The notes beneath the pieces were generated by a model. That model saw only the letters and a list, made by a program, of their open reading frames with translations, did not search any database and was not told the DNA's origin. Positions 1 to 50,000 of a stretch of 64,000 bases of DNA are shown here, piece by piece; positions within the stretch are counted from its first letter, which is position 1; each line of letters starts with the position of its first letter. The translations under genes and the position numbers were made by a program. Location: assembly GCA_025617745.1 (NCBI GenBank), contig CM046857.1, positions 26,754,094 to 26,818,093 on the forward strand, written 5' to 3'. Source of the stretch: Heliocidaris erythrogramma (taxonomy: Eukaryota > Echinodermata > Echinoidea > Camarodonta > Echinometridae).

Positions 1-299
1 TTGGTATGTTGACGAAAAGTGTTGCTTTTTAACAAAATTATAATTTTATCCTTTAAACATGGTTGAGAGAAATCATGAACTTGCCAATATACTTGAGAAA
101 GTAGTGTTTTTATCCATTAAATGAGAACAACTATGGTAGTATGTTTATAATTACTACTATGAACATTGATTACATTAGATTTTTAGGAAAATGCCCTTTT
201 TAACATTTCTATACCCACCCAATTAATTTCGCTTCAAATATGAATATATATTGCAGCATTTTCCAACTAGACTACAAATTAGTAATTTATATGTTTATA

Positions 300-606
300 T
301 ATTATATTATTTCTATATTTCTCTACATTGCTCTCTCTCGCTCTATCTCTCCCTATCTTTCTATCTCTCTATCGATCTCGCATTCTTTATTTATTCTCTT
401 ATTCGCTCTTCCTTTTTTATCTATCATATTTTCCTTAAATCATCTATCCCATTCTTCTTCTCTTACTCTCACCTCTTTACATTTTTCATTATTTTCATCA
501 TATATTCCTCATTCCTCATTTTACTCCTTTTCTATCTTCCTCTTTACTTTCTCTCCATCTCTCTCTCTCTCTCCTTCTCTCACTCTCTCTCTCTCTCTCT
601 CTCCCC
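300..606. repeat. pyrimidine-rich (CT)n low-complexity tract
   Basis: An impure TC/TCTC tract runs up to the splice acceptor at 623-624 and probably serves as an extended polypyrimidine tract for the first visible EGF exon. The open frames across it are Ser/Leu/Phe-rich and only reflect the CT repeats. Confidence 0.85.
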
Positions 607-624
607 CCTTCTTAATGCCCTCAG

Positions 625-2385
625 ATATCAACGAGTGTGCTAGTCAGCCATGTTTGAATGGTGGAACATGCATCAATGGACTAGGCATGTTTACATGCCA
701 GTGCTGTGATATATTCAGTGGCGACCGTTGTGAAATTAGTAAGTTTGTCATACCCTCTACGGAAGGTTTATCAGATGTATGGGTCATCCGATTTTACATA
801 ACTGATGATATCCCTGAAGTTAACATAGTCAATAAATTTTCATGGAAAAACAAAGGATATATCAATATATTGTCAGATTCGAACAATTTTCAGTCTCTAT
901 AGGGCCTACTGGGTAATAAAATGCTATAAAGTTTTGGAAAGGTACCGACTTCATAAAATGGAAGATATCCCAAATGTTATGAATGGCGAGAAAAAAGAGT
1001 GCCAATGGAAATTTTCTTTCTTTTCAGAAAAAAATTAAATTTGTGGATGATGCTGTATCACACATTTAGAAAATTGACAAAAATGAAATGAAATTTTAAA
1101 AAAATACCTATAATCAGTTTGCTTAAAATGTAATATTTTTCATCAAGCATTTTAGTACATATTTATGCATAATTCATATATTTTTTTATTTCACTCAAAA
1201 ATGTAGAAGGCCATGACCTACCTTTAAAGTAAGTCTGTACTCAGAAATAACTTTCATGATCATTATCACTAAACGATTTCAACTTGTGTTTCCCTCAAAG
1301 TATTAATTCATCATGTTAATTGTACACCATTTTTCTACTGATCAGGTGTGGGTGATACTATCTGCGACACAAATCCATGTGTGAATGGCGCCCTCTGTGT
1401 CCCACCCCAGGGTAATGATATACAGTATACTTGTGTGTGTCCGGATGGTTACATTGGAGCTAACTGTGAACTGGGTAAGTTCCTGTCCATTACATGATAT
1501 GCTCATGCCATTGCCCTACCAGAAGCAAAATACAGTCCCACAGTGTCATAAAATGTGATCAGGTTAAACGTACAATCATATTGTCTATACTGTATCACCT
1601 CGTCCATCCCAAGTGATTATTTTCTTTCTTTTCTGTTTTAATATAAGACCATCAGAGAGTGAGAGAGAAAGAGAGAGAAAGGTGGGGCCTAGTCGTCTAG
1701 GTCCTATGGTCGATGTCAGGGGCAGATGTCCAGAGTAATTTTCCAAAGGGATAGTAGTGTGGGGATAATTGTCCAACTGTACAATGGTAGTCTAGAAAGT
1801 AGGTGTCCTTAAATTCAAAATTATATCAAGGGAAAGACGTATTGGCCGATTATACATTATAACATGCTTTAGGAGCCTTGTCTACTATTAGCTCTTCTGA
1901 ACTAATCACCAATTTCAAATCTTCCACAGAAATCGACGAATGTGCCAGCAACCCCTGTCTGAACGGCTATGAATGCATAGATGAGGTCAATGGATACAGA
2001 TGTAACTGTGATACAAGTGCCTTAGGACCTAACTGTCGAGGAAGTAAGTACCTCATTTTAAGACCTTAAGGAATTTTTAACATAAGAAACTTTCAACAGC
2101 ATGGAACTTTCGCCAATTCCGAGAGTGGTCGAGATTCACAAAAAGTTTCATACCGCAAAACAGGTAGATTGAATCACAACATGAAATATTTCCAATCCAC
2201 AAAACTTTCTTGACGCGGCTATCATTGATAATCCGCGAAGGTTTAAAATTTTACAGAAAATAACAAATTATGGTCTTTTTCAGGGTTATCTCATACAAGG
2301 ATTCTGCTCTCGATATTTTGCTCTTTATCACAATCTCTCCTGAATGTTGTCCTATAAATGCCAATATGAACAGAACTGAAGTGTA

Positions 2386-20067: not shown

Positions 20068-20518
20068 ATGATGGGACCGGAGCCCGAGCCCGAGACGACC
20101 GCCGAGCCCGAGCCGAAGCCCGAGTCAGAGCCCGGGTATCCAGGAGGGGCGCCTTCTCAAGGCGGTGTGACACTCACTGAAATGATGGTTCCCCCCTTCG
20201 CGTTGATAGCCTTGCTCTTAGTAGGTAAGTAGGCCCCTGTAGATTTATTTCTAGAAGTCATAAAGGGTGGACAAACTGGACGCAGGTTTCAGAAACGTCT
20301 GAATCTGTCTTTACAAACATGACAAAGTGACGGATCAAGAGGCCGGGGCAAGGGGCACTTGTCCTTCCTTTCAAAATCCAATATGCCCTCAAACTATCTT
20401 CTTGGGTCCCCCTCAAAAAAATAGCTTGATTTTTTTGTTAATCTCCCTTGTCAGGGTAGTACTACTACCCTGACAGGGTAGTAGTAGTACTACTACTAGT
20501 AGTTGTAGTAGTACTAGC

Positions 20519-20577
<59 letters not shown>

Positions 20578-23500
20578 GAAGGGGAATTTGCAGGAGAAGG
20601 AGGGAAAAAGGTAGGAAGAGGAGAAGCTAGATATGGGAAGAACGGGAGGAGGAGCGAGAGGGAGGATAGAAGGGGTGGCAAGAACAGGAGCAGGGGAGGG
20701 GTGATAAAATCAGTAGTTATACCTTGTGACAGTTCATAATTATTGATCAATGATCAATGATAAGTCTCTCCTTTCACAATCAAAATCAGTTTTATAACAG
20801 AATTTTATTCTTATCAGCAAATACCAACTTTTATTCGTGTTTATATTCTTTTTTTTATTTCCGCCGATCCTCTGTAAGGGATGGTAATACTGATGATTAC
20901 GACATGTTGGAAGAGGAGAGCGAATAGATTACAATTTCGACAAAAGAGCTGTGACAAAGTCGACGTGATTCTACTTGGATCTATGACTGAATCTCATTGC
21001 GGCGCGCAATCGGATCAATGTGAGTATATTATAAAACAAGTTTTAAAAATCAAGAATCTCACAAAGTATCAGATATCTTTCACCCCTTTGCCCTTCAAAT
21101 CATTATGTTGATCAAAGCTGAAATATCAATATTCAACTTTAAAGTTAGGTATATTCTTCTAAAAATCCCGCAGCTTTAAAGAAAAGCCATTCAATGGTAC
21201 CATTATCACTATGAAAAAGTGAACTTTTTGTGTTATCAAAATGTATGTGCTCTTTCATGATGTATTCAACTATAGTGAATAGCTATAGAATGTGTACACT
21301 GAAAATAGTACAAATGCAAGTTCCGTTTGGTGCTATTACAGAAGATATTATAACTTATACTTGCTGTAATACGAATGATGTATTTGGCAACAAAAGACAT
21401 TTTATTAAACTGGCTTTCTTCCATTATACGTTACACCGGTTGCGGAATATTGAAGGCTAAATCATTATGATTAAGTTAATAGAGCTAAAGCAATGGCTAA
21501 ATGCTTGCCTTTGATTTCAAGCAAATAATCAAAACAAAAACAAAGCGTGAATGTCTACGTCTGACAGCTTGTCACAAAGGTATTGTAGAAGGGACTTGTA
21601 AAACTCTCAGTGTACCGATGAAACATCGGCATGACCTTGGATAAGAGGTGCAAATCTTGCACCCCTAAAGAATATTTCGCTCACCTACGTTCATTTAGGT
21701 GTGCAATATTCTATTAATAAATAGGATGAGGTACTATGCTTTACCTAGTATGCTTTTCTTTTCTGATCTGTTGATAGCTTTCCTCAAACGCTGTTTGGCA
21801 TCAACTTTTGAAAGACATGTCGGTTATCATCATTTCCATTTTGTCCTCTCTTTCCTGACAGTTTTAACCTCTGAAGAAGTCGAATCCATGGAAGCACTAA
21901 GGCGGCACTACAACAGACCACTGTCTTTGTTTCTCATTACTCTACCAGCTATCATCTCTCTAGCTATCTGCCCATGTCTCCTGCTTCTCAGAGCCCCTCT
22001 GATAACCGCCTTCTGGCCTAACGGTCTGCCTAATATCAATGATGGCGTAGGTTAGTGAAACTGAGCCAGTATGACCGAGAAATGGTATTTTGGAATGTTT
22101 AATTTGATATCAAGATTCGTTCAAACCACAACCATAACAATTTAATGAACATATTGTCATTTGGTAGAGCATCCATTTTCATATACAGCCATAGGTCCAG
22201 GGGATCTTCTTTATAGGCAAATATTTAAGGTAATTTTCCTTAGGATAGCAATCTGACCCTTCTACAAAAATTCCATGTACATGTATGAAGGAGAAAGAGA
22301 TCATCATCATCTTTCATGTCGTTATCATTATAATCGTAGATACTTCTAATTGCATTCATTTACATAATGGATGATGACTCTTCTTTCTTTTTCCAGGTTG
22401 CTTCTTGGCACCAGCTGGACTTGTATATGCGTAAGTTATGTCATTCTAAAAATAGTGTAAAAGGTATTTTTACAAACTTTCTATCATGTCTGTCTTAAGA
22501 TAATACACCATTTTTCTCAGAAAGCATACACATGCTGAATGTTAGAACAACATTGTACTTGTATTTCAGCTGGTCAGTATTTGTGATTTAATTGGATAAA
22601 GGATCCTCTCCAAAACATTTGCTCTTTCATTCACATATAATGGACGATCCATTTGCTGAAGTTTACCTGGAATGGTTTTGATTTTATCGGAATATTGACA
22701 CGCAGTTATATTTAATAATCTGACTGTATACGTTTCGTTTAATAATCACAATTTGGAGGACTCAGACGCAATGAAATAGCAATTCGCCAGTCTCTGGGTA
22801 GGTTTGAAAAGTTTGTTTCGCAACGATTGATTATCATTATGAACTCTGCTTTTTTGCAGTATTTATTCTAAGAAGATTGGTATAACAATCTCTTTCTCTA
22901 TCTTTCTCTCTCTCTCTCTCTCTTTCTCGCTCTCACACACTTTCTCTCCTTAATATCTCAATATAGAGTAACATTCGGTTTTACCTTCCAATCCGTGCTG
23001 GACAAACAACGTGGTATTACGACCACTGTCTCAACAGAAGTTGGACTCCTCGATCAGATTCTAGCAATGACGTCAAGAATGACGTCACTGACAACACAAG
23101 ACAGACTCAAAGTGAGCATTAGCACAGATAGATTGATGTCTACGGGGCTTTCGTAAATAGCCTTTAAAAAGATAATAATAAAATTTTTGGAAGGACTTGT
23201 GTGAGCGCCATAAATGTTGCTTAAAGTCGGCCAGCGAATTTTGTTTTGATAACTAATATAACCAGGATTGGGACATGATGCATAGATGAGCTATGTGCAT
23301 ATTTTTCTTTCATCTTAAAAATCATTTAGAAATTTAGAAGATCTGTGAGCCTTGCCGGAGAGCCCCTTGCAAACACAGGGTCCAGTTAGGGTCGACATAC
23401 TGGTCTCATCAGGTCGTCTAACGGCAAAGGTTACATTGACCCCCGGGGGGGGGGGGGGCACTCAGATATATGTGTGTAGACATGCGCGTCCAAGAAAACG

Positions 23501-26500
23501 CGTAAAAAGGGGTATTTTTATCAGGTGGAACGCGTTAAGGGGCCCCAAAACGCTGATTTTCAACAAAAAGGGGTGCTTTTGACTAATCTGGCCGAACGCG
23601 TTTAGGGGGTATATTTTTCACTTTGGCACCAATATGTAAATGGGACATTTTCTGATATTTTCAGGGATTTTCACGGGGATTTACAGCCCGATTTCAGTTC
23701 AGGGAGTGGCGCGCGGCAGTGCATGCAGATGGATGCAAAAAAGAGAGGAGAATCGGGAGCGGAGAGTTCTACCGACGCAGCCATAGTGCACTGAAATGGT
23801 TCCCCCTCTGAAATGTGTTGTTGCTTATAAGTTATAGCGCGCGCTAGCTTGCACTAAGTCAAACCTGTTTAGGGGGTTGGATGATGAAAAACCGCGCAAA
23901 TATCCTCGTTTAGGGGTCATTTTTCATCCAAGTATAAAACCTGTTTAGGGGGTATTTTGAAAACCCATGGACACGCATGTGTACACCCATATATCTGAGT
24001 GCCCCCCCCCCCCCCGGGCATTTACCTTCCCGTTTATTTTGTTTATTTTTCTTTTCCCTTCCCTCTCTTTCTCTCTTCCGCCACACAACTAGGCAAAGGT
24101 TAGACCAAACAAATGCATTTCATTCCTTCTTTGTTTTTTTCTGCCCTTAGATCTACAAGTTGGTGAAGATAGAAATCATTTCGATCATGCAGCAGGTGAC
24201 TGGTCGTCGAGGTATGAGCTCTAAGGATTACCGCCATGAATACTCAGCTGGTCAGATCTGGGATGTGGTTAATGTACTGCAGAAAGGTGACAAGGATAGA
24301 GACCATTGTGACACCACCATAGTCGTAAGTCAATAAGCCAGTTCGGGGTTAGCGCATGGTATAAATGACCCCAAATATCCACATATATTTTAGACATGGA
24401 GGGTCCCTTTATGTGCACTTCAGAAAAATAACTCTGGGAGTGATAGAGGTGCCTCATGAATAGCTTTTGTTTCCCCCTAAAATGGTGCTGTTGCGTGCAA
24501 TATCGACGGTGAACAATGTGCTTTTGTGAAGGGCGCTTATCTTGACTGTCACCCGAAATGCCCGACATGGCAGACATTACGGGAAACTGATAAAAAAAAA
24601 ACTTTACAAAAATATGAATCATACGGTCACTTGGTTTATAATAAAATAACAAAACGAGTAAAGTTACATCAATAAGCCAGTTCGGGGTTAGCGCATGGTA
24701 CAAATGACCCCAAATATCCACAGATATTTTAGACATGGAGGGTCCCTTTATGTGCACTTCAGAAAAATAACTCTGGGAGTGATAGAGGTGCCTCATGAAT
24801 AGCTTTTGTTTCCCCCTTTAAAAAGAATACTTCCACCTGGATATCATGGAATGCACCATTAGTGCATAATTGAATAATGATTACATGACATTCATGAGCA
24901 CATATAGAATATTAGTGTCAGTGGGTTTTAGAATTTGGTACAGATGACCTTTATCTGCTCATGCTCAGATTGCATCTCCGAAGTGGCTTATAGCAAGCAC
25001 TGCACACGAAAGAGGGGGGGGGGGGGGGGGGGGGGTCCTTACCCCTTTTCTCTTCAGATGACTCGTTGGCAAAGACACCCCAGTCCCTCACTGATCGTCA
25101 TCCCATCACGACTATTCTCTCCCTCTCCCTCTCTCCCCTCTCTCTCTCTCTCCATCTTTCTTTCTTTCTTTCTTCCCTCCGTTTTTCTTTCTCTCTCTTT
25201 TTTTCTCTCTCTTTCTCTCTTTCTCTCTTTCCTTTTCTCTGTCTCTTTAAATACATACTTTATTTCTCATGAACGCTGACATAGACATTAGATAGACACA
25301 TCTTTTGTTTCTCTTTTAAATTAACCGGGAAAATCATGCATGGATAAAAGAGAAGAAAAAGAAATACTGAATTTCCATAGCTGATTTTGGCTATTCTTTT
25401 GCAGGACAAAATTATGAGTAATCTTCAGGAGTTGGCAACCTGTGCGACACAGCGCTACATGACACTACACTATACCGTGCATCCTCTATTATGGATGTTC
25501 TTAGAAGTGCTTGGGTTCTTCTCTTACTTTGGTGTCATGCTTATTGTGGTAAGAAAAATATTCATCTATTGGCATATCCTTTCAATTAATGGACAACTAC
25601 ACTGTAAAAACTGAAGTGCTACTTTTTCGGGGCATGTATAGTGACCGCACCTGAAATGCTGTTTTAGCACTTGTAGTGTGCTAATTTACCAGCAAATAAA
25701 AATGTGACCGTGGCGAGCCTCGAACCAGGTTCCGCTGATTGAGAGGCATGGACCTTACCGATAGACTAACGAACTCGTCTTGCAATCCAGCTTAGTCGTG
25801 GGAGTCAAGTCAACATGAACTATGTGGTGTCGTAAATTCACTATGTAACAATATGATCTGCTCTAAATCGTACGATGTGAGTGAGTCTAGCGGTAAGCAG
25901 GTAGACCCTGGTTCGAATCAAGATTTTTTTTAAATTTTTTTTTAGCAGTTTAAGGAGCCGGTCCAGCTCCCGTGAAAGTGCTGAAATAGCACGCTGTGTG
26001 CATTCCAATAGCACTCTGAGTGCAGTCCCTATGCAAGCCCACAGAAAGTGTTAAATTTAGCCGTCCTGTTGCTGAAAACAGCACTTAAGTTTTTAGAGTG
26101 TAGAGGCAGAATATTCCATCTCGGTTCAGTACACGGCAAATCCGGTCTTGGCGTCCCCGTGTGACCATTGCAATATTTCCTGGGCTCCCAAACAGAAGGG
26201 GCGGCCGACGTCACCCCATGTTGGATACGCCATAGGAATGTTATGCCCATGTTCTGTAGTCCGTTTGAAGTTGTATTATATTGCTGACCCGCCTCTTTGT
26301 TTTCTGTTACAGACGGAATCAAGTCAGATGGATCTCATGATGTGTATCATTACAGTATTCTCAATCAGTTTGCTTTGTTACGTCATCGGTGATCTCGACC
26401 AACCGTTCAGTGGTTACTTCAGGGTGAGTGTAATAAAAATAGAAACTTGTTGGACTATAGTTTGTAGAATAAAGTATGCATCCTTCTGTGATGGTTGCTG

Positions 26501-27000
26501 ATTTGGAATGAAAACTTGGGACGAATTAATGCTTGTCGTATTGAAAATGTGTCTAAATATTTTATTCACTATCAGAATAAAGCTGTTATAACTTGTATCT
26601 CATAATAATCCATCTTGGTGGAACAACAGTTACTGAATCTTTCTCATAATCATAATGTATTTCAAAGATGTCTGAATTTTTAGACATTGTTTTATTCTTC
26701 AAGTATGTTCAAAAAGACGTACTTTTTGTTCTTTCTCTCTATCGCCCTCCCGCCCTCCCTCCTTCTCTCCTTCTCTTACTCTCACTATCTCTCTCTCTCT
26801 CTCTCTGTCCGTTCATCAACTAGGTTAATCTGAGTACATTGTGGCATCTGGTAGGTAAGGTCGAGTATTTCTACACTGAGGAGCAGGGTAAAGAGTCAGA
26901 CTGCATCCAAACACCAAGTACCAGATCCCTTTCATACGCCACGCCCACCAAGCAGCTCTCGCCCTCCACACCCAGCGTTCGATCCAGACAGACCTTATAG
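20068..27000 (+). CDS. bestrophin-like-domain (DUF4239) multipass membrane protein, 9 exons, 423 aa
   Basis: Exons: 20068-20224, 20879-21019, 21862-22050, 22397-22430, 22967-23111, 24151-24324, 25405-25548, 26313-26423 and 26824-27000 (TAG). All junctions are GT-AG, phases agree, and the total of 1272 nt is an exact multiple of three. The protein starts with an acidic PEPEPE/KPESEP segment (residues 4-22). Hydrophobic spans lie near 40-62, 118-140, 160-180, 305-328 and 335-355. The C-terminal pair (HPLLWMFLEVLGFFSYFG, then CYVIGDLDQPFSGYFRV) matches the hallmark of the bestrophin-like domain family PF14023/DUF4239, usually LDxPFSGxxRV. That family is widespread in bacteria and plants and its function is not established; a channel or transporter role is only a suggestion from its name. 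A Ser/Thr/Pro-rich tail (about 380-423) could be regulatory. The start is the first of two adjacent ATGs (20068, 20071). Confidence 0.85.
20455..20577. repeat. (GTA/TAG)n microsatellite with a palindromic lead-in
   Basis: A pure AGT triplet run covers about 20517-20577. Just before it CAGGGTAGTACTACTACCCTG and its neighbours form a near-perfect hairpin. It lies in the first coding intron of the DUF4239 gene. Confidence 0.9.
20578..20878. other. DUF4239 gene intron 1, 3' part
   Basis: GA-rich sequence (about 20578-20700) followed by an AT-rich stretch and the acceptor at 20877-20878. No other feature was seen. Confidence 0.5.
23441..24019. mobile_element. MITE with G-run-bearing terminal inverted repeats
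   Basis: Both ends read CCCGGGG..., then a run of about 14 G and GGCACTCAGATATATG, in inverted orientation; homology continues about 50 bp inward (GTGTAGACATGCGCGTCC). The interior repeats the words AACGCGT and TTTAGGGGGTAT. It lies in the intron after exon 5 of the DUF4239 gene and shows that at least some G/C runs here are structural parts of transposon ends. Confidence 0.85.
24331..24991. mobile_element. MITE, 'CAATAAGCCACTT' family, long copy abutting a splice donor
   Basis: The ends are CAATAAGCCAGTTCGGGG and the complement of CTATAAGCCACTTCGGAG. Inside are two direct copies of a ~149-bp block (24331-24479 and 24670-24818) separated by a segment that also occurs inverted at 13415-13575. 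The right end is followed by a G-run at 25013-25036. The left end begins directly after the GTAAGT donor of exon 6 of the DUF4239 gene. Confidence 0.7.
25080..25245. repeat. (CT)n/(CTTT)n low-complexity tract
   Basis: A long pyrimidine-rich stretch in the intron before exon 7 of the DUF4239 gene. Its Ser/Leu/Phe open frames are artefacts of composition. Confidence 0.85.
25600..26100. mobile_element. foldback element with inverted tRNA-like boxes, TA target site
   Basis: TA-flanked ends: CACTGTAAAAACTGAAGTGC and the complement of CACTCTAAAAACTTAAGTGC. Each arm has a Pol III B-box-like word, CTGGTTCGAATC near 25908 on the + strand and CTGGTTCGAGGC on the - strand near 25720, and the surrounding 60-70 bp of the two arms align as inverted repeats. 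The tRNA-like segments therefore belong to the foldback rather than to a separate tRNA gene. It lies in the intron between exons 7 and 8 of the DUF4239 gene. Confidence 0.7.
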
Positions 27001-28063: not shown

Positions 28064-28441
28064 ATGTAAAAAAAAATCCTCAAAAAGTTCGTCAACGGAT
28101 TGCCTTGATTATTTTAAGTATTTGTAACAGGGAATTTTTAAGTAGAATTTACTTATTTGAATAAACATTTACTCAGTTAAATTGAGTTACATTAACGTAA
28201 ATAATTTAAGTATTGTAATTAGGTAAAAGGCGGTATCCTCGAGCCCCGGCCAGTCCCCCTCTTCCGGGACCCTGCATGCCCTGTAAAAAATTCCTCAAAA
28301 AAAAAGTTCGTCAACGGATTGCCTTGATTATTTTAAGTATTTGTAACATGGAATTTTAAGTAGAATATACTTATTTTGCTTAATAAACTTTTACTCAGTT
28401 AAATTGATTTACATTAACGTAAATAATTTAAGTATTGTAAT
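28064..28441. repeat. tandem duplication, about 219-bp period, two copies
   Basis: AAGTTCGTCAACGGATTGCC and about 150 following bases occur at about 28085 and again 219 bp downstream with few differences, separated by a GC-rich stretch near 28235-28275. No coding potential is visible. Confidence 0.85.
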
Positions 28442-28489: not shown

Positions 28490-30500
28490 CCATCTAACAT
28501 TCACTGACACTCTTTCATTCAATTTAACATTTCGAACAATGAAATCTGCACATGTGCTTTTCGAATTCATAAAAGGTCTTCAAATTGACACGTGCTCTAT
28601 ATTCAGTCAAATTCGCCAACACCGGTCGAAGGGGTTATTTCAGTCATTCAATTTCGTGGATGGGCATCCAAATTCCCAACATTTTCAGTCAAATTACCTC
28701 ATAGTTTAATTTCCATTTCAAAAGGTGAGAACATATGTATTTAATTTTATTTTTGTTTCGGCCACACACTGTTAAAACAGCAAATAACTCAAATTTGGTG
28801 TTCTGTAACGCCCCTCTTCTTTCATACATCCATAAGGCATATGTATATCGGTACGACAGAGCCCCTTCATCTTCTTCGGTACAGTCAGGGCAGCACAAGT
28901 TAGATACAGGCGCATATCTCAACAAGATAGAGAAAGACTTATAGAAGCATTGAGGGACATAACCTTGACTACCTAGAGCTGGCCGACACGCTCGGAATAA
29001 AGCGCTCAACGGCCAGATCAATAATATTGTGGCCACATATCTCCGGACCGGGAGACGCAACAAGCTGCCAAGGGGAGGCGAGCGAAACGTGAAGAGCCAC
29101 TGTAAGCAGTAACCCCTTAGTCACCCTTGAGCAACTGAAGATAGATCTACGGGCAGCTCTTCCCCAGAAGCCCTCGGTATCCGTCTCTACTATTGCTAGA
29201 GCACTTGACGGAATGCCCATCACGACGAAACTGGCCGAGGATGTCCCAGATGCTAGAAATTCACCGAGAATCCTATACACGCGCATGGAGTACGCACAGT
29301 GGTTTATGGCCGAGGGTGTCGTTGCACACTGTGTCTACATTGATGAGACCGGCTACAACTTCTGGACCAGACGCTCTTTTGGAAAAGCCCCACGCGTGGT
29401 CCCTGCACGTCGGGTCGTACATGGCCAACGCGGTCGGCAGTGCAGTGTCACTTTTGCAGTTTCAAGTGAGAATGGGCTCGTCCACCACACTGTTGCAGTG
29501 GAAACTGTGACGAGGGAAACTTTCGAGGCTTTCCTGGCTACCACCGCTCATGAATGCGAGAATGTCTTCCCCCCTTGATGAGGACGTGTACCTGATTTTA
29601 GACAACGCACGTCCTCATGTAAGAGCTAAGCTACCTGGTGATGCAAGCCCAAGGATTCATTTGAAGTTTCTTCCTCCGTATTCTCCATTTCTCAACTGCG
29701 TGGAGATGGCCCATTCTGCGTTTAAGGCAGCCATCAAACGAGATCTGGCCCGCCCGGAGTTGTAGCAGAGGGTAGGCGACAGAGAAGCAGCACAAGAAGC
29801 TAGGGTCAACATGCAGGAGTGGAGAATCAACCTTGTTCAGCAGGCAGCTCGACGAAATACGGACGCAATAACACAAGAGAGAAAGCCATCCGGTGGTTTA
29901 ACCACACCCAGACATACCTCCCAGGATGCCTGGGCCGCCAACAAATTGATGGCTAGAACTGATCTAAGAACTGTATTCGTACCCACCCAATGCAAATAAT
30001 GAAAGACATATGAAAGAAATAATCACGATGTAAATTGAAACCTCCACACACAATACACCATTGAAAGAAAAGTTTCCAAGATGATACAGGAATAAAGAAT
30101 AATCCGAAAATATGAAATATTCTGATGCTCATACAAAACAATGATGAAAGAATTGAAAAAAGTAGAAGAATAAACGCTTAAAGACGTCTGCTAAATTGAC
30201 TTAAGTACGTGTTAAATTGGATGCCTAGAAATGAATTCGAATGAACGAGCGCACTATATTTGTGATCACGTGACTACATAATTCTAAATTGAATGAACGA
30301 TTTGCGAATTCATGCTTGTTTAATGAATTTCAGTTGAAAAAGTATTAATTAGAATGAGGTTAAATGTAATCTGAATGCTCCAAAAATTAATTTGAACGAA
30401 TAAATAATGAAATTAAAATACCGAGCGTGTCCTCTTGGCTAAACTTGGCTAAATTGAATGAATGCTCTATCAAATGGACTGACAACAATACGAAATTGGC
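28490..30500. mobile_element. decayed IS630/Tc1-type DNA transposon with repeat-array arms (approximate limits)
   Basis: A transposase remnant (28920-29880) is flanked by two arrays of degenerate short words in opposite orientation: TCAATTT/TCAAATT on the left (about 28515-28690) and AAATTGAATGA on the right (about 30180-30480). This fits subterminal inverted repeat arrays. Exact termini and target duplications were not identified, so the outer limits are estimates. Confidence 0.5.
28920..29880 (+). pseudogene. IS630/Tc1-like transposase (DDE_3 type), disrupted
   Basis: In order: a first helix-turn-helix (DYLELADTLGIKRSTARSII, about 28968-29028), a linker with YLRTGRRNKLPRGGERNVK, a second HTH-like part (LVTLEQLKIDLRAALPQK, then VSTIARALDG), and the catalytic core. 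The core shows the first Asp in VYIDETGYNFW, the second in LILDNARPH and the Glu in LNCVEMAHS, with 33 residues between the last two. Frame changes occur near 28965 and near 29572, and an in-frame TAG at 29763-29765 precedes a C-terminal continuation (VGDREAAQEARVNMQEWRI). It belongs to the IS630-Tc1-mariner superfamily, in a group with the DETGYN motif. It is not functional as read. Confidence 0.85.
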
Positions 30501-32321: not shown

Positions 32322-35300
32322 TTAAATCAACCATGTTGTGATACCGGTATTATCTGAAAGAAAGAGTACATGGTTATGTGACCAAGTTTTGTGAAATAAA
32401 GCCAAATTATTTTGAACTTTGTAAAACTCATAATCAATAATTATCCTGTTTTTTATTCTGAATGTCCAAAAAGGAACAGGATCGAAAAAACGGGTAGTAC
32501 GATAAAGCCAATACATTGTACTTTTAAAACTGATAAGGTCGTTGAAAAGGCGTACAGCTTCCCGACAACGACCTCATGCATGTGGAAGTAGAGTCCAGTA
32601 CATATCAAAGTCAATTTTAACGTTCGGAAGAAGACGTGAGAGAAGATGATGCAGAAGATCAAGAGCTGGCTGAATAGAAGCACACTCGATGAAAAGAAGA
32701 ACAATAGTTCCTTTCTCACCACACCAACCACATGAAGAAGAGATGTCTGGGTTGAGATGATGGGGAACAACAAGCGATGGAAGAACATTGTGCAAGAGTT
32801 TATACTGAATGTCACCGTCTTTCTTATACGATGGATAGCGATAGACTTCAGTCCAATTTATTGACGTAGACGGGGAAAGCATCCGAATATCATGCCAGTG
32901 AGTAAATTGAGTTCTCGGTATAGAAAGTTAACAGCTCGATTGGAGATATGGTAAACTAATTTACTCGGTATGGTAAGCATGTTCTTGGTGTCGTTAATAA
33001 AAGAGAAAAGGAGTCACAATAGGTGCTGTCAACGTAGCCAATTTCGGAAGATGTGAAGTGACGGAAGACATTCTAAGTCCATTGGTGGAGAAAAACTCAG
33101 GGAAAATGCTTGAAATCACAGCCTGAAGTCTTAAAAGTTCACACTCAAGGAGGCGAAGGGATTGACGTTGTAGAACAGAAGAGATGACCACATCTGCTGC
33201 TCGAAGCCAAGTGCCATTGTTGTTTACTAAATGTTTGACGAGTTTGATTCCACATGCAAAAAGTCTAGAAGGGAAACTGTTAACGCCACTCGATGTACAA
33301 TAAAGGAAACGATGATAATTTAAAGGAATATTTAAAACATGGTTGACAGAGAAGGACGATGTGTCTACGAGAGCTCCGGAGAGGCTCCAATCACGCAAAA
33401 TTTCAGAATAAAAACAAGGGAGGCTGCTATAGTACTTTGGGTCTAATTCAATTAAGAATAATTGATAATTGAAATCAAGTTTTTTTTGTATCGTCGTAAA
33501 AAATAATAAAATGCGTACGCGGGGTGAGAATAGAGCTTTAAAAAGCGTTGTAAAAAAGTAAACCGAAAGGTAAGGGTCCGTGCTTGGAGACATACCAAAC
33601 CAAGTCCACCTTTGTTAGGTTGTTAAAATCTCTGATTTCAAAAGATGCCTTTTTATGGACCAAATGAAAGCAATAAGCAATCTTTGGAGTTCATCCAGGA
33701 TATGAGGAGGAGGAGAAACAATGGCCAAACAATGAAAGAGTTTAGTTGAAGCTAACTGATTAGCGACAATAATCTTTCCTTTTACATGTTTTAAGGATAA
33801 GGAAAAACAAGATAACTCCAGCGAGAGAGAGTTTTGTTTAGTTTCTCTTTGCATTTAATCCAGTTATTATTCACATAACTAATACTATTGCCTAGATGAA
33901 CCCCAAGAAAAAGTAAACCCTCGTTATTCCATTGAAAATTAAGAGGCTTATCTTTCCGTCTGGACCAGGATCCTGCCCATAGTCCCTGTGATTTTGCATG
34001 ATTAAGGCAAGCGGCTGATGCCTTAATACTGAAAAGATTATATGTATTAGAGATTATGTCAAAACCTGTATCATTGGTTACAAAAATTGATATATCATCA
34101 GCATAGGCTGAAACAGCAACATTTCCACTGTTATTAGGAAAAACGGTAAGAGAGCCACACACTTTGACTAGGCCCTCTGCGTCATTATACAGAAGTTGAA
34201 TACAAGAAATAAAGAAATTACCAATGCCCATACTCCTCATTGTATTAAAGAGGTAGCTATGGTCGACGTTATCAAAAGCTTTCCTTTTGATCTAAGTTAA
34301 CAATAGCAAGGGGGTGTCATTACAATTAGAAAAGTGAATAATGTCACGAATTAAACTAAGATTGTGGTATATTGTTCTTTCAGGAATACAATATGTTTGA
34401 TCTTCGGATATTATTTTCGATATATGTGTTTTAAGTCTATTAGCCAAAACCTCTGCAAAAATCTTATAATCATTGTTAAGTAACGAAACTGGACGCCAGT
34501 TGGAAATATCTGCTAGATCTCCCTTTTTAGGAATTAGTGTAATTACAGCTTTACAAAGTTTCTTAGGAAGACATTCAGATTTTATGGCATATTGAAACAC
34601 AGAAAAAAGATCATTCCTAATTAAGGGCCAAAACGTCCGATAGAATTCAGAAGAAAGGCCGTCTAAACAAGGTGTTTTGTTTTTGCCAAGTTCGTCAATA
34701 GACAAAGGAGAATCAAGAGATTTAGAATCTTCAGGGTCGAGTTTCGATAAATCATTTAAAATAGAGTTAACTGAATCAATATCAATAGGAGTACGACAGT
34801 ACAAATTCTTGTAAAAGTTTCGAACATGACTTTTAATTTCACTCTGATCTTCTGTAACAACACCTTGTGGAAGACGAGTGCGAGTGAGTGTTTTGAAAGA
34901 AGAATTAGGTTTCTCAAGACCATAAAAGAAGGCTGAATTTGTGTCTATCTCATTAGCATATTGAAAACGTGACCTGACAAGGGCACCTTTGGCTTGATTT
35001 TTTAAAAGATTGTTAAATTAATTTCTTTGTTCAGCCAGGGTCCGCTGAATGTCAGGTGTGAAAACAGGCGCAGACTGCAACTCATCAATAAACTTATTTA
35101 TTTTTAGAAAAGCTTCTCTGTTTTCATTTGCTAGTTTAGAACCATACATTTGGCTGAGCCGCTCCTGAGCGATTTGATGTGAGATTTACCGAAAATCCCA
35201 CCAAGACAAAATATTTGGAAAATCCGTTTTCTGTTTTTGTCAGACCAAAAATGAGTAATTATATTTATGAACTCATTATCTCCAAGAAGAGAATTATTAA

Positions 35301-36126
35301 AATGCCAAAAAGCACTTCCTCTTGGTTTCTTTGGAGGAATTTTAATTTTAAGGGAAACTGCACAATGATCAGAAAGAGAACATGGAAGAATACGGCAAGA
35401 AAAAAATGAAGGTGCTAAAGATAGAGGTACATAAAAACGATCAAGTCTTGCTTTGGAAACGCCATATATATGCTATGGGGTTGTTTCTATGCCACGTGTA
35501 TTTCTTTTCGAAAGGGTGCAATCTACGCCAGCTATCGCATAAGTAAGTTGATACTTTCAATTATATGTTTGAGAGAAGAAAATAATTTTGTTCTGTGTTC
35601 AGTAGGCCTACAAAATCTATCCAATGAAGGGTCAATGGTGCAGTAAGTTGAAATCTCCACCAAAAATAATAATCCCATCACTGCATTGGTTAACATGAAC
35701 AATAAGAGAATTGATAGCTTCAAGAGCAAAGCTGTCTTCCTGTGGCATTAAAATATTGTACAAAAGATAAATATTAGAGTCAAATTCAATTTTTACATAG
35801 AGAATATAATTGTTAAAAATAATTTGATGCTCACAAACACTACATTGTCTACACTTTACAAGGGTGGCAACCCCAGAGCCCCGAGTACAACCCGGAGCAC
35901 AAAAGGGGCTGTAAGAAGTCCACACTTTCCAACAATGTGAGTTACAGGAAAATTCATTAATTTCTTGCAAGAAAACAATATCGGAGTCAAAAAACAATTT
36001 GTCAACATAAGAGAAAATGGAGGCATTCTTAGTGGAATTGGAACAGCCTCCAGTGTTGAAAGTGAGCAACGACAACGTCATAAGTAAGACAAAAAGAGTA
36101 TGCAGGCCTACGTCCATAGTACACAT
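32322..36126 (-). pseudogene. Tx1-type LINE ORF2: endonuclease plus reverse transcriptase
   Basis: It begins just after ORF1, a 12-nt gap. The apurinic-endonuclease part shows LTFNTGG, DIVFLQEI and IIFGGDFN (about 35640-36080). The reverse transcriptase shows ITLIPKKGDLADISNWRPVS and DQTYCIPERTIYHNLSLIRD (34292-34804), then the catalytic SAYADDISIFV (about 34085). The C-terminal region includes IIVANQLASTKLFHCLAIVS and CGWCGEKGTIVLLFIEC and ends at 32322. About 1,270 codons in total, usual for the clade. Frame changes lie near 35640, 34290 and 33800, among others. Confidence 0.85.
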
Positions 36127-36138
36127 AAAAGGAAAGGA

Positions 36139-37623
36139 TCACACATCTAGATTTTTAATCAATTTAAAGATCCGCTGCTGTGTACTCTTTAGGAAAAGAG
36201 GGCTTTTACGCAGGGGCCTTAACTGTCTTACAAGTCCTGGTATATTCGAAGTAAATTTCCTAGCGACCTCTAAAGGTTTTTTCCGAGCTTTGACTATTTT
36301 AAGGAATTTGATCAGTTCTTTTTCTGAAAGGGGTCCTTGACTTGACGGGAAAGAACAGGCCCAATCCAAGGAGTCATCATCGGACTGTGTATCTTCTAAC
36401 ACAACATCATCAGTATCAGCAGTACCTGCTGTTGAGGCTGGGGAGGGTGGAATTGAAGATGTAGGTGATGTACGGTGTGAGGCAGGGGTAGGGGAAATGG
36501 GCTCTGATGATACAGGGGAGGAAAATTTTTTCATCATTTTCCGCGAAGGGGTATCTGAAACAAGCTGCATAAGTTTGGGGGAGTCTTCTAAAAGAGGAAT
36601 GGTAGATTGTTTCCTTTTTGCAACAACGTCAGAGAAAAGTCTCGATGGGACGGGTGATGAGCCCCAAACAGGGGGTACATGAGGGGAATGGGTCTGTGAT
36701 AACTCCTTGGTTAAGGGAGGCAAAAGTACTTCAGAATGCCGTTTGCTCTCGGCATCCAGGTTGCTTTCCATTGGGGTCTCTCGGCTTAGGTTGCGGAGAG
36801 GGGTGCGGAGAGTGGGGCGCAAGAGCATCACCATGGTGAATAACGTTTTGAGTTTGCTCCCGACTTGAGGTTTTAGTCAGAGATCTAGACTGCTTGGAAG
36901 GATGTCGTGGATCAGATTTTCCTTTGCTCTGCACCAAACGGGGGGGGGGGGGGGGGGGGGGGGGATGGAATTTGTAGGCTCATCTTGTCGAGCTGTTTTT
37001 TTTTCTACAGATTGTACTAAAATGGCCAACCTCCCCGCACATAAAGCAGCGAGCTGCCTCCGTGGAAATAAAAACACGATAATTGATTCCTAGATGAGTA
37101 AAATTAATGTAACCGGGAGGGGTGACATTAGGATTGTACCTGACGACGAAATGACATAAAATTATGTGAGAAAAATCTTTTTCCTTAAAGCCAGCAGGAA
37201 TAGGGCGAATTTGAGAAACTACTTTACAGAAAGAAGAAATTTGTTTCACTAAAACGGAATTCGGAATTTCCGTATAAACGTTAGACATTGTTAGCCTTGT
37301 TGTTGGCAATACAAGTGGAGAGACCTGAACGAATGAGCTCTGGAAAGTGATGCCATTGTCTACAGCTCGCAAGACTGCATCCCTGGAATTGAGGTAAATG
37401 GCAATCCGCTGATTACTAATGCGAGAAGCAGAAACAATACTTTGTGCAGGTGTGGTTTGTGCGAACGCTTTAACTTAGTCAGGAATGGGAACATGTTGCT
37501 CAGCAATGAAAGAAATTCCATTATTTCGCCTAACAGACTTGAAAGGCTCCGGGCTGAGCCATAAACCTGAGCCGTACTGGTCCCCGGCTCGTCCCGGGAG
37601 GCCTGTTCGACCCCGGTGGCCAT
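36139..37623 (-). pseudogene. Tx1-type LINE ORF1, RNA-binding (gag-like) protein with CCHC zinc knuckle
   Basis: It starts at MATGVEQASRDEPGTST (37623). A central part ends with a CX2CX4HX4C knuckle (CFMCGEVGHFSTIC, about 37000), and the C-terminal part is Ser/Pro/Glu-rich and ends RIFKLIKNLDV at 36139. The frame changes at about 37480 and again around the poly-C run at 36941-36963, so it is broken. The protein would coat the LINE RNA during retrotransposition. Confidence 0.7.
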
Positions 37624-44000: not shown

Positions 44001-47000
44001 GAGTGTACAAATGTGACATATTCTTCAAGTACTCATTGAAAGCTATCAATATTGAAAAAATGTGAGACAATAAATTTTAAGAGTGTATAAAATTCACACA
44101 TGACGGCAAATTAGCATTATTTAATGATTTTGGACCTTTTGGGGGAACCTAGTCAAATTATAGTGTACAAATGTGATAATATTCTTCAATTCATTTAAAA
44201 CTATCAATATTGTAAATAGCACTATGATCAGGCTTTTGCGTTTGTGAGAAAATCAATTATGGAATATGCTCTAAAGGTCACACGTTACCAGAAATGAGCA
44301 TATTTTAAGTGTATAACTGTTTTTTGTTGACTTTGAGAAGCGATTTCAAGGTCATTCTCCTATAAAACAAACTTACAGTAGTATATTTTCTTTTAGTATC
44401 TATAACATACTGCCAGCACTGTTAATATCACTGTGCTTGGCCTTTTTATCTTGAAGGAATTAACATTTGAAATATGATCTTAAGCCCATATGTCAATTTT
44501 CTTTGATTTTGATGCGTTTATGACCATTTTCGACAGTGTACATTGGCCATTGAACGTTCCGGACGCAAAATTTCTTTGGTAACTCGTTAAAATATACATG
44601 TAGGTACCTTGGGGCCTATCCATACACAAGAATTGGTGGTGTTCCGAGATTGGACTAAGGGTGATCCATGACCTTGAAATTGGCTTATTTTGAAAATATC
44701 CCAAATTTGAGGGCGCTCTTTAGCAAAACCGCTTGGACAAACGTCTGATTTTTTTTTAGGTAACTTGTTCAATTACTAAAAGTGTTCAAATATACAAAAT
44801 ATTGGGTCCTAAGCTTATTTGATTTTGAAGCTATGAACCTCCAAACATACGCTTGAAATCACAGATTTGACAGTGCACGCCATTTTCGGTGACCTTGTAC
44901 ACGAAAATGGAGAATGTATTTGTGTCATGATTATTTTTTTTTTGTAAAGGGCATAAAGTTCTCTCAATATCCAGACAATGAGCTCTCTGTGTGAAGAATT
45001 TTGGCTACAGTTGTCAAAAATGCATAAATTTAATTAGCCCTATTGCTTTGTCTGTGCATTGGTTGCTAGGCGAGGCCATATCTTAGCAACCGTTTGACCT
45101 TGGGGCAAAATATTTTGGAGTTTTCCGTCAGACACTTGGGGGAACATTTGGTGCGAGTTTAAAGAAAATCGAAGGGGGTCGGGTGACACCCATCCGTTGA
45201 TTTGATGTGGATTGACCCATCTACTATCTAGATCTACATGTTGAAAATATTGAAAAACTAGGGTGGTGTATTCCGACCTAAGCATACATGTAGGTCGGCT
45301 GTTCGGACACCTTGTTGGTGATATACGGTCATACCGTCTGTCTATGGGGAAGGTTGAGAAATGTAAGAAATATTAAAGATTTCCCCATAACAGACGGTTA
45401 TTTCTGTCTAGCATCGAGTGAGCTTAAAATCATTGTCCCTACGGGTGAACTGCCTCACCCCAACCCGTAATTTAAACTATGAAGTCGTAAATGAAAAACA
45501 AATACGCAGTCACAGAATGTAATGATTATCATATACTTATTATAATGCACCCACCTGAGTTTTGAAATAATCCAAGATGAAATTAACCTCAATTTGCCAT
45601 GTTGTCAACGGGGTTTCGCAAGTGAATCGAGGCGAACAGAATAGTATATAGCGAGCGGACTTTAGGTCCCAGCTCAGCAGCAGAGCTCTGCACTCAAATG
45701 CAGTCAAAGTTGATAAATTTGTTGTTTCACCATATTTCGATAAAAATATTACAAATACCACATATTAAAGATAATGTCACAAACACTACTTAAACTACAA
45801 TAAAAATTCATAAACTTGCGTGAAGGGGGATGAATTTTATGATTTGAATATTTGCCGATGAAAAAAACGAGAGTATTATATCGAGAACGATCGCGAACAA
45901 TCTTTTCTCCCATGTTGAAGCACTACTGTTCGTGCGCAATGGTGATTGGCACCAGATTGACACTCCGATTTTCGAGAGACCAGCACTGAGAAAAGATCGT
46001 TTGTGACATTCTATTACATTTTTTTATGCCAAAGAAATACAGAAAATGTACAAATTATCACTCCTATTGCAAGTTTTTTTATGTTCTTGTAACTAGGTGT
46101 TGAGTTGGTGATTTTATGTGATGTAGTATTTGTGCTATTTTCATCGAACGAGCCAAATATTTGTAGCACCATAGGGAAACACATAGCGATGGACCCCAAC
46201 AGGAGTGGCTGTGGCAGACTTAGGTCTATTTAGGAGAGGGATTCCGTGAAGCCAGACGTCTCAGCAGAGCATATCCCGGAACGAAATAGACTGATTTTTC
46301 GGTCTTTAGCTGTACGAGCTCCTTGGCTTATCAATCTGTAGGAGTGTAGACAGAAAAATCTGTCTGTTTGGAGGATTTTTATAACATTTTTTGACTCTTG
46401 AGGTTCTCCTCCAAGACAGACGGCAGCCTCCCATAGGCACTGTAATCGAGTACCTCTCTGCTAGCCTTAAGCACTAGGTCTATGCCCAAAATGGGTTATT
46501 TATTATTTTCATACAACTCCTTCAATTGAATTTCAATTACCTTGATCAAGTGAAATCTTCATACTGTTTTTGCCATGTTGACCAGCAATCTTGTTCCTTT
46601 GAAACTCACACAAGTTCAGCAACTACGCATCCTCGGCTTTAGCGGCAGTACGGACGTATGGGTGCGAGGACATTTATGAATAACCTTGCATATGTATCAG
46701 TGGCTAATTGATAATTGTTGACCACTAGAATAATACCAGTCATCAAGATTTACTACATGATAAATGATTGCATGGACTCTATCCCATTTTCTTCCTCCTC
46801 ATAATGCAGGGGAAGAGGCAGAGGTATAGGAGGCAGAGGTGGAGGAGGCAGAGGTTCGGCAGAGGTACGGGAGGTACAGGAAGCACCAGGGGTGGAAGAG
46901 CACCTCAAGGGAACCCCAGAGGCCAGAACAGAGGCAGGGGCAACTGGCAAAAGCAACCCGCCAAATTTCAGGAGAAGCCAGTCATCGTCGATGCAAGACA

Positions 47001-50000
47001 GAAGCTGATTCAGAAGGCTCACCAGGGTGATGCTAGGGACAGACTTGCTAAGAAAGCAAGGCAGACCGATGCAAGGCTGAAGCTGACATCGAGGAAGAGG
47101 AGTACAGATGACCAGTTGGTGGCGCAGCCAAGGAGCGGGGAACAACCACCTCCTGCTGATCTGGCTAGACCACTCGCAAGAACAGTGCCAAACGTAAGAG
47201 GAAGCTTGGAATGTATTTATTGTATGGTTAGCTGTAGAAGGGACAGGATCTCTCTTTTTTTTTTGGGGGGGGGGAGGTCTTCTTCTTGTTTTCTCATTCT
47301 TTCTTTCTTTTTATCAACATTGACAATTTGCCAAGTATGTCTTACCTGAAAATAAAGCAGCAGACTATTCCTCACAATTTTTTTCTATTTCTTTTTTTAT
47401 GGCAACATTTTGCTTTTACTTAACTGGTGTTTTTTACCTGTAATGACAGAATACACTCTAAAATGTCATAAAAGCCCATGCAACCCTCTGGTAAAATGTT
47501 GATTTATTTATGTCTTCACTGTAGAGAACTAATTGTTGTACTATCCCCATCAGTTTTCAACTGTCGAGCTGTGGATGTATAATAAGCTCACTGAATATTT
47601 AGTAACTCTTGAATTGTTTGTGTAGAAAGTCTCTCTTTACTTGATATACCTTTTAGCTCTGATTCTCCCCATAACTTTATGATCAAGAAAGCTCCTCTCT
47701 CATGATACCTTCGCTGTAGTAATGACAGTATCCTGCTCCATGTTCCTCAAACATATGCCATATAACACTTTCCAGGCATGAACTTCTCGACTATGGAACA
47801 AGCTTCCAAGAATTATTCTTTGATCCCCTTCTTTGGATGTGTTCAAGAAATTCTCAAAATTCTCCTTTTCAATAAGTAATCAACAACAATATAATTCCTC
47901 AATAATTTCCATGCCTCCGCACACTGAAGGTGGGTGCCGGAGGCATTTAATGTTTTTGGGTTGTCCCGTCCCGCTTTCTCGTTATAGCGATAACTCAAGA
48001 ACCACATGAGGTGTGAACTTTAAACTTGGTGCTAGTATGTATCACCATAGAAAGACGATCTGATTAGATTTTGGGATATAAAGGTCAAAGGTCATAGAGG
48101 TTCCTTCTGAAATTGCAATTTTTAGCCTTGTTAACATGATATCTCAAGAACCATTTGGTCCATTAACTTCAAACTTGGCACTAGTATTCATCACCATAGT
48201 GAGACAAACTTATTAGGTTTTTGTTCACGTAGGTCAAAGGTGACAGGTCATAGAGGTCATTATACAGGTGTGAAATTAATGCTTTTTTTGCCTTATCTTT
48301 TATTCTGGTTCAATCAAAATTTTAAACAAATCAACATGAATGTGCAATATATTTCTGATCTGGAAAGGGCGGAGGCATAACTTCATCTAGTTATGACAGT
48401 AAGTTTTGTGTAACAATAGTTATTTTGTAAGAACACTTTATACAAATTAAATTGTTGTACTGTATTGTATAAGTTTCTCTTACATGTACTTTCCAAATTA
48501 TGGTGCAGTTGGGATCAACCTTCACAGTGCGCAATCCCGCCAGAGTACAGAACAAAACACAGATCACCATAAGGAATCCCCCTCAGCAGGAATCCCCGTC
48601 ATCTCTTTCCATGTCCACCTCCTCCCACCATGGGACCTCCCCACGTCGGAGTAACAACCCCTTGCTGGCTGGAAGCAGTACTCTCAGAGTCACCAAGGCT
48701 GTTCCACAACCTCAAAAGGTATGTCAAGTGGTTATAGGCCAACAAAAGCCTCAATCACACTGGCACAGTATACTTGCAAGTGAATAGCAAGTGAGGGTAT
48801 TAAAAAAGGAGCATCACCCATCAAATTCCTCTACAGTGTGAGTCAATAAAAAGGAAACTCAGATTCAACCATGAATTCTGTTGCAATCAGTACAGTTTAC
48901 TAAGTAGATTTAATCAGATACTCAAGTAGTTTTAATACAAGATACTCATAGTGTAGCCTATCATGTTTCCTTTAATTTGAAACCTTGATCAATAAAATCC
49001 AACTATGGACAGCTGAGCAGTACGGTAATATTTTTCCCGACGCATGCCAAATTTGCCTCTGCCCAAGTTTTGAATGAAATGAACGGTCGACCCAAGGTTG
49101 ACTGAATGATCTCTATTCCAGATGAATGCACTCACAAATAATGAAAGTGACTCCTGAGTGGCCCCATTGCATAAAACTTACCATTAATGGTAACTCCCAT
49201 GGAAACCTTGATTTTGATTGGCTGTTGAGTGATGTTACTACATGATGGTAGTTACCATTGATAGCAGAGTTACCATTAATGGTATTAAAGTTTTATGCAA
49301 CGGGGCTTTGAACACCATCCAGCCCAAACTTGGGCAAAGATAATTCTGACATGCTTTTTGAAAATGACCAGTGCTCAGTTATCCTTTATTGCATTTTGGT
49401 TAGCAGCCTATCAGTTAAAGAAGACATCAACTATCATACCATTATAATACACTTCAGTGATTTCACTTGGTTTTAAGATATTGAGGCTTGAATATTGGTA
49501 TCTTTTTTTTTACTCACACAATATGTGCTCGTTGATCTCTGTGCTGTGTGCTACAGACTTTCGATGCGCAGAATGCTGACATTTAATTTTCTTGCTACTG
49601 CCTTTTAAGGCAGCCTACAGCCTACAGCGTCTAGTGTTATGAAAAGGCTTAATTTGGTTGCCCAGGGTTAGTGATGGACAGGTAAAATTATCAGCAATGC
49701 AAAAATGAGTGCTCTTCATTGGATACTTTCCTCTTCTATTTTATACCTATTGACACATAAGTGAACTGGGATTAGAGCACACCATAGTCCACACACCTTG
49801 GGAAATCTTACAATGTCTACGATGAACTCTATTCATGTAACAAAAACAATGATACTCGCGATGTAGCATGATTTGCAATGAACGGCCTGTTACCAAGATT
49901 GGCATTACCGCATTCATCCCCAGTAATTATTTTGCGAGTACACGTGGTGGACTGGTGGTGTAAAATATTTTTTTAATTTACATTATTAAGCCCTATTTTC

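Follow-up and report, generated by a model that had tools for sequence, protein, structure and literature searches.

The PF14023 gene of the window

The window is a stretch of 64,000 nucleotides of Heliocidaris erythrogramma DNA, located at 26.75–26.82 Mb of contig C5 in an assembly of 1.064 Gb in 26 contigs. It carries on the + strand, at 20068–27000, a gene of nine exons whose joined coding sequence of 1,272 nt (stop codon included) encodes 423 residues with no internal stop. An earlier note on this DNA had proposed the same nine exons and the same length, and both were found correct when the exon join was re-computed. Judged from its sequence, the gene is intact and rich in introns, belongs to the host and encodes a member of the PF14023 (Bestrophin-like) family. 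We lean, with some reserve, towards reading the locus as a nuclear animal gene for a PF14023 protein that most likely acts as a bestrophin-type oligomeric ion channel.

In a search against Pfam-A, the protein matched PF14023 with an E value of 1.8e-34 and 119.8 bits, compared to a cut-off of 32. The match spans residues 146–368, corresponding to profile positions 13–229 of 232. Three families were listed at E up to 10, and the two others were both far under their own cut-offs. Membership had been suggested in the earlier note, also under the name DUF4239, which we take to be the old name of PF14023, and the profile search proposed there thus confirmed it. A motif DLDxPFxG, defined from the bacterial PF14023 rows gathered in this analysis, follows the last helix and is present as DLDQPFSG at residues 355–362 (26391–26414, +), where it aligns with the ELEDPFG motif of bestrophins.

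Hydropathy peaks are found at residues 44–62, 124–142, 161–179, 311–329 and 336–354. The last four predicted helices (S1 to S4) fit the PF14023 core, with a predicted layout of one helix pair on either side of a long soluble helical domain. The first one, here called TM0 (peak value 2.73), is an extra helix; L028, L029 and other bacterial genes like them begin near S1 and have nothing that corresponds to it. Six of the 15 residues that follow TM0 are lysine or arginine, compared to none of the preceding 15. Because basic residues follow TM0, the positive-inside rule would place the N-terminus outside and the core in the N-in/C-in orientation known from bestrophins; the Pro/Glu-rich N-terminus would then face outside.

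All eight introns start with GT and end with AG, the exon start phases are 0,1,1,1,2,0,0,0,0, and an in-frame stop lies 8 codons upstream of the ATG at 20068. Exon 1 (20068–20224) includes the start codon, the acidic Pro/Glu-rich N-terminus (residues 1–40) and the first half of TM0, with a donor in phase 1, while exon 2 (20879–21019) carries the second half of TM0 and then a basic KRRANRLQFRQK linker, as judged by hydropathy and charge count. Predicted helix S1 is encoded by exon 3 (21862–22050) and the start of S2 (FLAPAGLVYA) by a micro-exon of 34 nt, exon 4 (22397–22430). The 145-nt exon 5 (22967–23111) contributes the end of S2 with an FGF neck-like motif and the start of the helical domain, which continues, in a predicted cytosolic location, through exon 6 (24151–24324) and ends together with S3 in the 144-nt exon 7 (25405–25548). 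Exon 8 (26313–26423, 111 nt) encodes S4 and the DLDQPFSGYFR motif, and exon 9 (26824–27000) the end of the core, a Ser/Thr-rich C-terminal tail and the stop codon. All exons are on the + strand, as is a possible polyadenylation signal at 28160–28165, a consensus match and the first AATAAA or ATTAAA past the stop codon.

Two introns carry repeats. Intron 5 contains at 23442–24018 two 51-nt arms, 94% complementary and 475 nt apart, with G/C runs at their tips, an arrangement that looks like a non-autonomous DNA transposon. In intron 6, a 149-nt direct repeat (24330–24478 and 24669–24817, 99% identical) begins right after the exon 6 donor.

A paralog with matching introns on contig C9

Searches of the same genome with the PF14023 profile and with the protein matched only the window gene and one region of contig C9 (at least 4 and at least 16 matches, respectively). 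This region (C9 49598000–49667999) holds two near-identical tandem copies of a paralog, A and B, about 33.7 kb apart, with 6 mismatches and 24 gap positions between them over 7.3 kb. The two copies were combined into a composite protein, which aligns with the window protein over 399 columns at 39.3% identity (E 2e-94). The composite also belongs to PF14023 (E 1e-35).

The C9 exon borders were set from exon-wise similarity and GT/AG sites with the window gene as guide. In the resulting model every intron (8 of 8) agrees with its counterpart in the window gene in alignment column and phase, the match of phase at intron 2 being imposed since C9 exon 2 was sought only among lengths divisible by three. 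Exon 5 has 145 nt and exon 7 has 144 nt in all three, the window gene and the two copies. For the micro-exon 4, copy A has the 34 nt of the window gene and copy B 33 nt; for exon 8, copy B has the 111 nt of the window gene and copy A 115 nt. No similarity was found between the introns of the window gene and those of copy B. Mismatches between the two genes amount to 0.48, 0.34 and 0.66 at the three codon positions, with a nonsynonymous divergence (dN) of 0.60; the synonymous divergence (dS) was not computable, which we read as saturation. We infer the joining of the window exons from this conservation. Since two diverged genes have one intron pattern and a conserved micro-exon, chance or contamination is very hard to invoke, and we regard the two genes as an old host gene family. 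The paralog thus strengthens the view of the earlier note that this is a settled host gene and not contamination.

The C9 copies are less regular. Six of their nine exons are identical between copies and exons 4 and 8 differ in length; each copy, as assembled, has a frame-changing length difference. The duplication reaches only a short way into exon 9 of copy A, which is apparently partial and seems to stop inside that exon. Either the copies are decaying or they are affected by length errors of the assembly; the window gene is free of these frame breaks.

The acidic Pro/Glu N-terminus is similar in the paralog and is therefore not peculiar to the window gene. The earlier note had rightly described this N-terminus and the Ser/Thr-rich tail as additions to the core; the former, as we now see, also precedes an extra predicted helix. 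Upstream of the C9 exon 1 ATG, an in-frame stretch resembles by eye a signal peptide, which would likewise put the N-terminus outside.

PF14023 in bacteria and its probable relation to bestrophins

A scan for the motif in one genome per species, for 84,980 species, returned 7 stretches. Reading of their open reading frames (ORFs) gave 4 PF14023-like genes, 2 unrelated proteins and 1 stretch without such an ORF, and a PF14023 search in 5 of the 7 motif-bearing genomes matched in 4 of them. In drawn samples, 39 of 299 genomes of Pseudomonadota (the phylum of genome G003) and 19 of 199 genomes of the phylum of G004 were over the PF14023 cut-off. An alignment, A5, of 43 bacterial and 2 animal rows was drawn from 58 hits: 10 were set aside (7 duplicates, fragments or outliers, and 3 seeds re-added under their own coordinates), 40 of the remaining 48 were taken with 8 omitted by choice, and the 3 seeds completed the bacterial set. 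The residues of the window motif recur in these 43 rows, with D357 in 34, P359 in 38, F360 in 28 and G362 in 41 of them.

The best-scoring bacterial rows, L066 and L067, align with the window protein over 212 and 200 columns at 21–22% identity, and shorter bacterial pieces reach 32% over 82 columns. In a 45-row tree the animal pair groups with these two rows (98/98), which come from one bacterial phylum. The animal profile was also searched in 392 genomes from this phylum, in a sample that overlaps with the 199 genomes above; 5 genomes matched (best E 3.4e-11) and the top two were those of L066 and L067. However, the four grouped rows, and no others, were flagged for unusual composition, and they lie behind long inner branches; for this reason we claim no bacterial donor, although L066 and L067 also come first in the pairwise scores.

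Searches around the bacterial genes and in mobile DNA were negative. No common partner gene was found, by eye, in the neighbourhoods of L026, L028 and L029. No match was obtained by tblastn with the whole protein in plasmids or with the core in phages, nor for PF14023 in three selected plasmid records (0/3). Among viral contigs scanned with the bacterial and animal profiles, 73 and 36 pattern matches occurred, respectively, and none was confirmed. Neither PF14023 nor PF01062 (bestrophin proper) was matched in 14 control genomes, which are hence uninformative here.

We further compared the family with bestrophins at the profile level. The bestrophin profile was composed of Escherichia coli YneE and 9 selected bacterial rows (from 60 listed of 126 records). 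Aligned to it by hhalign, A5 gave a probability of 88.0, a P value of 3.1e-6 and a score of 47.4 over 190 columns. The alignment runs colinearly between the S2 neck and the PFG segment that follows S4, with LGF placed on LGF and DLDxPFxG on ELEDPFG. With reversed profiles the score fell to 17.0 (bestrophins reversed) or 16.7 (A5 reversed). After removal of gappy columns the real alignment scored 49.5, compared to at most 15.7 in 40 of 40 column shuffles and at most 32.0 in 40 shuffles of 15-column blocks. The bacterial rows of A5 alone scored 48.9, all 6 random 20-row bacterial subsets 41.5–52.6 and all 4 random 7-row bestrophin subsets 46.5–52.7. These results suggest that PF14023 is probably a remote relative of the bestrophins. 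The idea itself is not new, as the Pfam name is already Bestrophin-like. In the literature, the text of PMC6155114 places DUF4239 in a co-occurrence cluster and describes a 'DUF4329', possibly a printing error for DUF4239, as homologous to bestrophin; in the text of PMC4602095, bestrophin occurs only in a table. The genome analysed here also has 6 exon-wise PF01062 matches of its own, on contig C3 and apart from the window gene.

A predicted channel and its alternatives

In the account of the neck given in the bestrophin review PMC8496536, this constriction is formed by I76, F80 and F84 in chicken BEST1 and bovine BEST2 and by I62, I66 and F70 in KpBest. The same text describes KpBest as a sodium channel that is not calcium sensitive and is without the calcium site, and places the acidic calcium cluster of BEST1 at 293–308. 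By alignment, the equivalent residues in the window protein are L171 (codon 22420–22422, +; position of I76 and I62), V175 (22968–22970, +; F80 and I66) and F179 (22980–22982, +; F84 and F70). In the bacterial rows of A5, position 175 is L, F, V or I in 43/43 and position 179 is F or L in 43/43. No acidic residue is present at 358–378 of the window protein, the region of the BEST1 calcium cluster.

From such comparisons we infer topology, oligomerisation, pore, gating and selectivity as follows. The acidic Pro/Glu-rich N-terminus would lie outside the cell or in the lumen of an organelle and be followed by TM0 and a basic cytosolic linker. Of the four core helices S1–S4, S2 and S3 would be joined by a long helical domain in the cytosol, and the Ser/Thr-rich tail would also be cytosolic. 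S2 would line the pore, with L171, V175 and F179 as a hydrophobic neck acting as a hydrophobic gate, and the DLDQPFSG segment after S4 would take the place of the bestrophin PFG segment. Such a channel would not be calcium-gated through a site of the BEST1 type, and its ion preference is uncertain. Since the protein has neither the IFF neck nor the acidic clasp, chloride selectivity and calcium gating should not be assumed; the aliphatic-aliphatic-Phe neck is of the KpBest kind, and together with the missing clasp it predicts a channel without calcium gating at that site.

Several observations weigh against a bestrophin-type channel. The bacterial rows do not keep a hydrophobic residue at position 171 (V13 G10 T8 I5 A3 L2 S2 of 43), the C9 paralog has a Thr at neck position 175, and the R/N/Y residues that follow the neck in bestrophins are absent from the window protein. 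In the profile comparison, shuffles of 30-column blocks, in which true segments stay whole, reached 44.0 in 40 tries, so that local segments carry much of the signal, and in 2 of the 10 subsets the alignment covered no more than 53 or 65 columns. By themselves, the two animal rows gave no significant link to bestrophins (hhalign probability 0.2), nor did they together with L066 and L067 (1.0, on the same percent scale). The window protein had no PF01062 match in the Pfam-A search up to an E value of 10. Among the 9 matches of a profile search in the PDB there was no bestrophin, and the single protein sequence gave one irrelevant PDB match. Because the animal sequences alone show no link, the animal gene is tied to bestrophins via the bacterial PF14023 family.

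These points nourish two other explanations of the protein. The main rival is a membrane protein that has kept the bestrophin fold and no longer conducts, serving as a sensor, an adaptor or an accessory subunit whose working parts would be the acidic ectodomain and the Ser/Thr-rich tail. The variable position 171, the polar Thr of the paralog and the parts that lie beyond the core in the animal genes (acidic N-terminus, extra helix and tail) all fit this explanation. In contrast, conservation between the animal paralogs is strongest, by eye, in the core helices and the PF-G segment, and in the bacteria the third neck position (F/L) and G362 are kept in 43/43 and 41/43 rows. We consider it rather unlikely, though to be taken seriously. 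It could also be argued that the likeness to bestrophins is one of shared membrane-helix composition, the family consisting of unrelated four-helix transporters or structural proteins. The lack of any PF01062 or PDB bestrophin match, the unlinked animal-only profile and the high scores of 30-column block shuffles would agree with this. Reversed profiles, however, keep the composition and yet score about a third of the real value (16.7 and 17.0 vs 47.4), the match is colinear over both signature segments, and Pfam itself names the family Bestrophin-like, which makes an explanation by composition improbable.

Two further alternatives concern the gene rather than the protein. A pseudogene, or exons wrongly joined, could be suspected from the C9 copies, both with a frame-changing length difference and one seemingly ending inside exon 9. 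The window gene, however, has no frame break and GT/AG borders at eight introns, and its codon-position mismatches and dN relative to the paralog are as under protein selection; we hold this for very unlikely. That the gene was recently acquired from bacteria, or is a contaminant in the assembly, has next to no probability. PF14023 is indeed common in bacteria, as seen in the samples of two phyla, but the eight introns have matches in the paralog of contig C9, at 39% protein identity, and even the best-scoring bacterial rows, over some 200 columns, show only the low identity given above. On these two grounds it was rejected. An ancient transfer from bacteria is a possible origin. A bestrophin-type ion channel stays our preferred reading of the PF14023 protein. 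Of the two roles offered in the earlier note, that of a channel stands as a reasonable proposal in view of the remote family homology, whereas no support was found for that of a scaffold.

Elsewhere in the window, ORFs at 33791–37474 (−) show matches to reverse transcriptase (RVT_1), endonuclease-like and CCHC zinc-knuckle families, 1 of 4 being over its family cut-off; we regard them as the remains, in several frames, of a retrotransposon of the long interspersed nuclear element (LINE) type. An ORF at 29093–29578 (+) has a DDE_3 transposase-like match just under the cut-off (26.7 vs 28.6 bits). Another at 204–902 (+) carries an EGF-like domain (E 5.7e-6) and is perhaps part of a neighbouring gene. 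The LINE remnants and this ORF, with the spliceosomal introns and an assembly of 1.06 Gb in 26 contigs, point to an animal host. An Arg/Gly-rich ORF at 46768–47349 (+) has no Pfam match at E 0.01; we take it to recall the N-terminus of POLDIP3.

Place among known systems

Sequence databases hold uncharacterised animal PF14023 entries. No animal member of PF14023/DUF4239 was found in the open-access literature searched, and the description of the gene in the earlier note as undescribed holds as far as that literature goes. In the main text of the bestrophin review PMC8496536 the term DUF4239 does not appear. What is new here is a well-supported further member, not a new kind. As a tentative proposal, which we would put somewhat below an even chance, animals may hold beside BEST1-4 a second, uncharacterised class of bestrophin-related channels. 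Its members would be PF14023 proteins with one more helix at the N-terminus, an acidic domain facing the outside or the lumen, a neck like that of KpBest and no calcium clasp, and at least two ancient paralogs would have been kept. If this is true, some animals would carry a class of bestrophin-related channels unnamed in the main text of that review, and the neck together with the missing clasp would provide a natural test of what sets ion preference and gating. The window protein is in any case a definite candidate for testing what the bacterially common PF14023 family does.

Its closest relative here, the C9 paralog, differs by a possible upstream signal peptide and a different tail, and the paralog model has a shorter helical domain, from which an exon may have been missed. 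With the bacterial PF14023 family the window protein shares a near full-length domain, the predicted layout in helix pairs and the DLDxPFxG motif, and it differs from that family by its extra N-terminal helix, acidic N-terminus, Ser/Thr-rich tail and eight introns. The likeness to animal bestrophins (BEST1-4, of family PF01062) is limited to a probable overall layout: the neck is L-V-F compared to I-F-F in the neck account of PMC8496536, and the stretch 358–378, with no acidic residue, contrasts with the acidic calcium clasp of BEST1. The prokaryotic members of PF01062, KpBest and E. coli YneE, are set apart from the window protein by the missing PF01062 match and by its extra helix, while a remote colinear profile homology links them to it at the level of the PF14023 family. 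With KpBest in particular, it would share both the aliphatic-aliphatic-Phe type of neck and a pore without calcium clasp.

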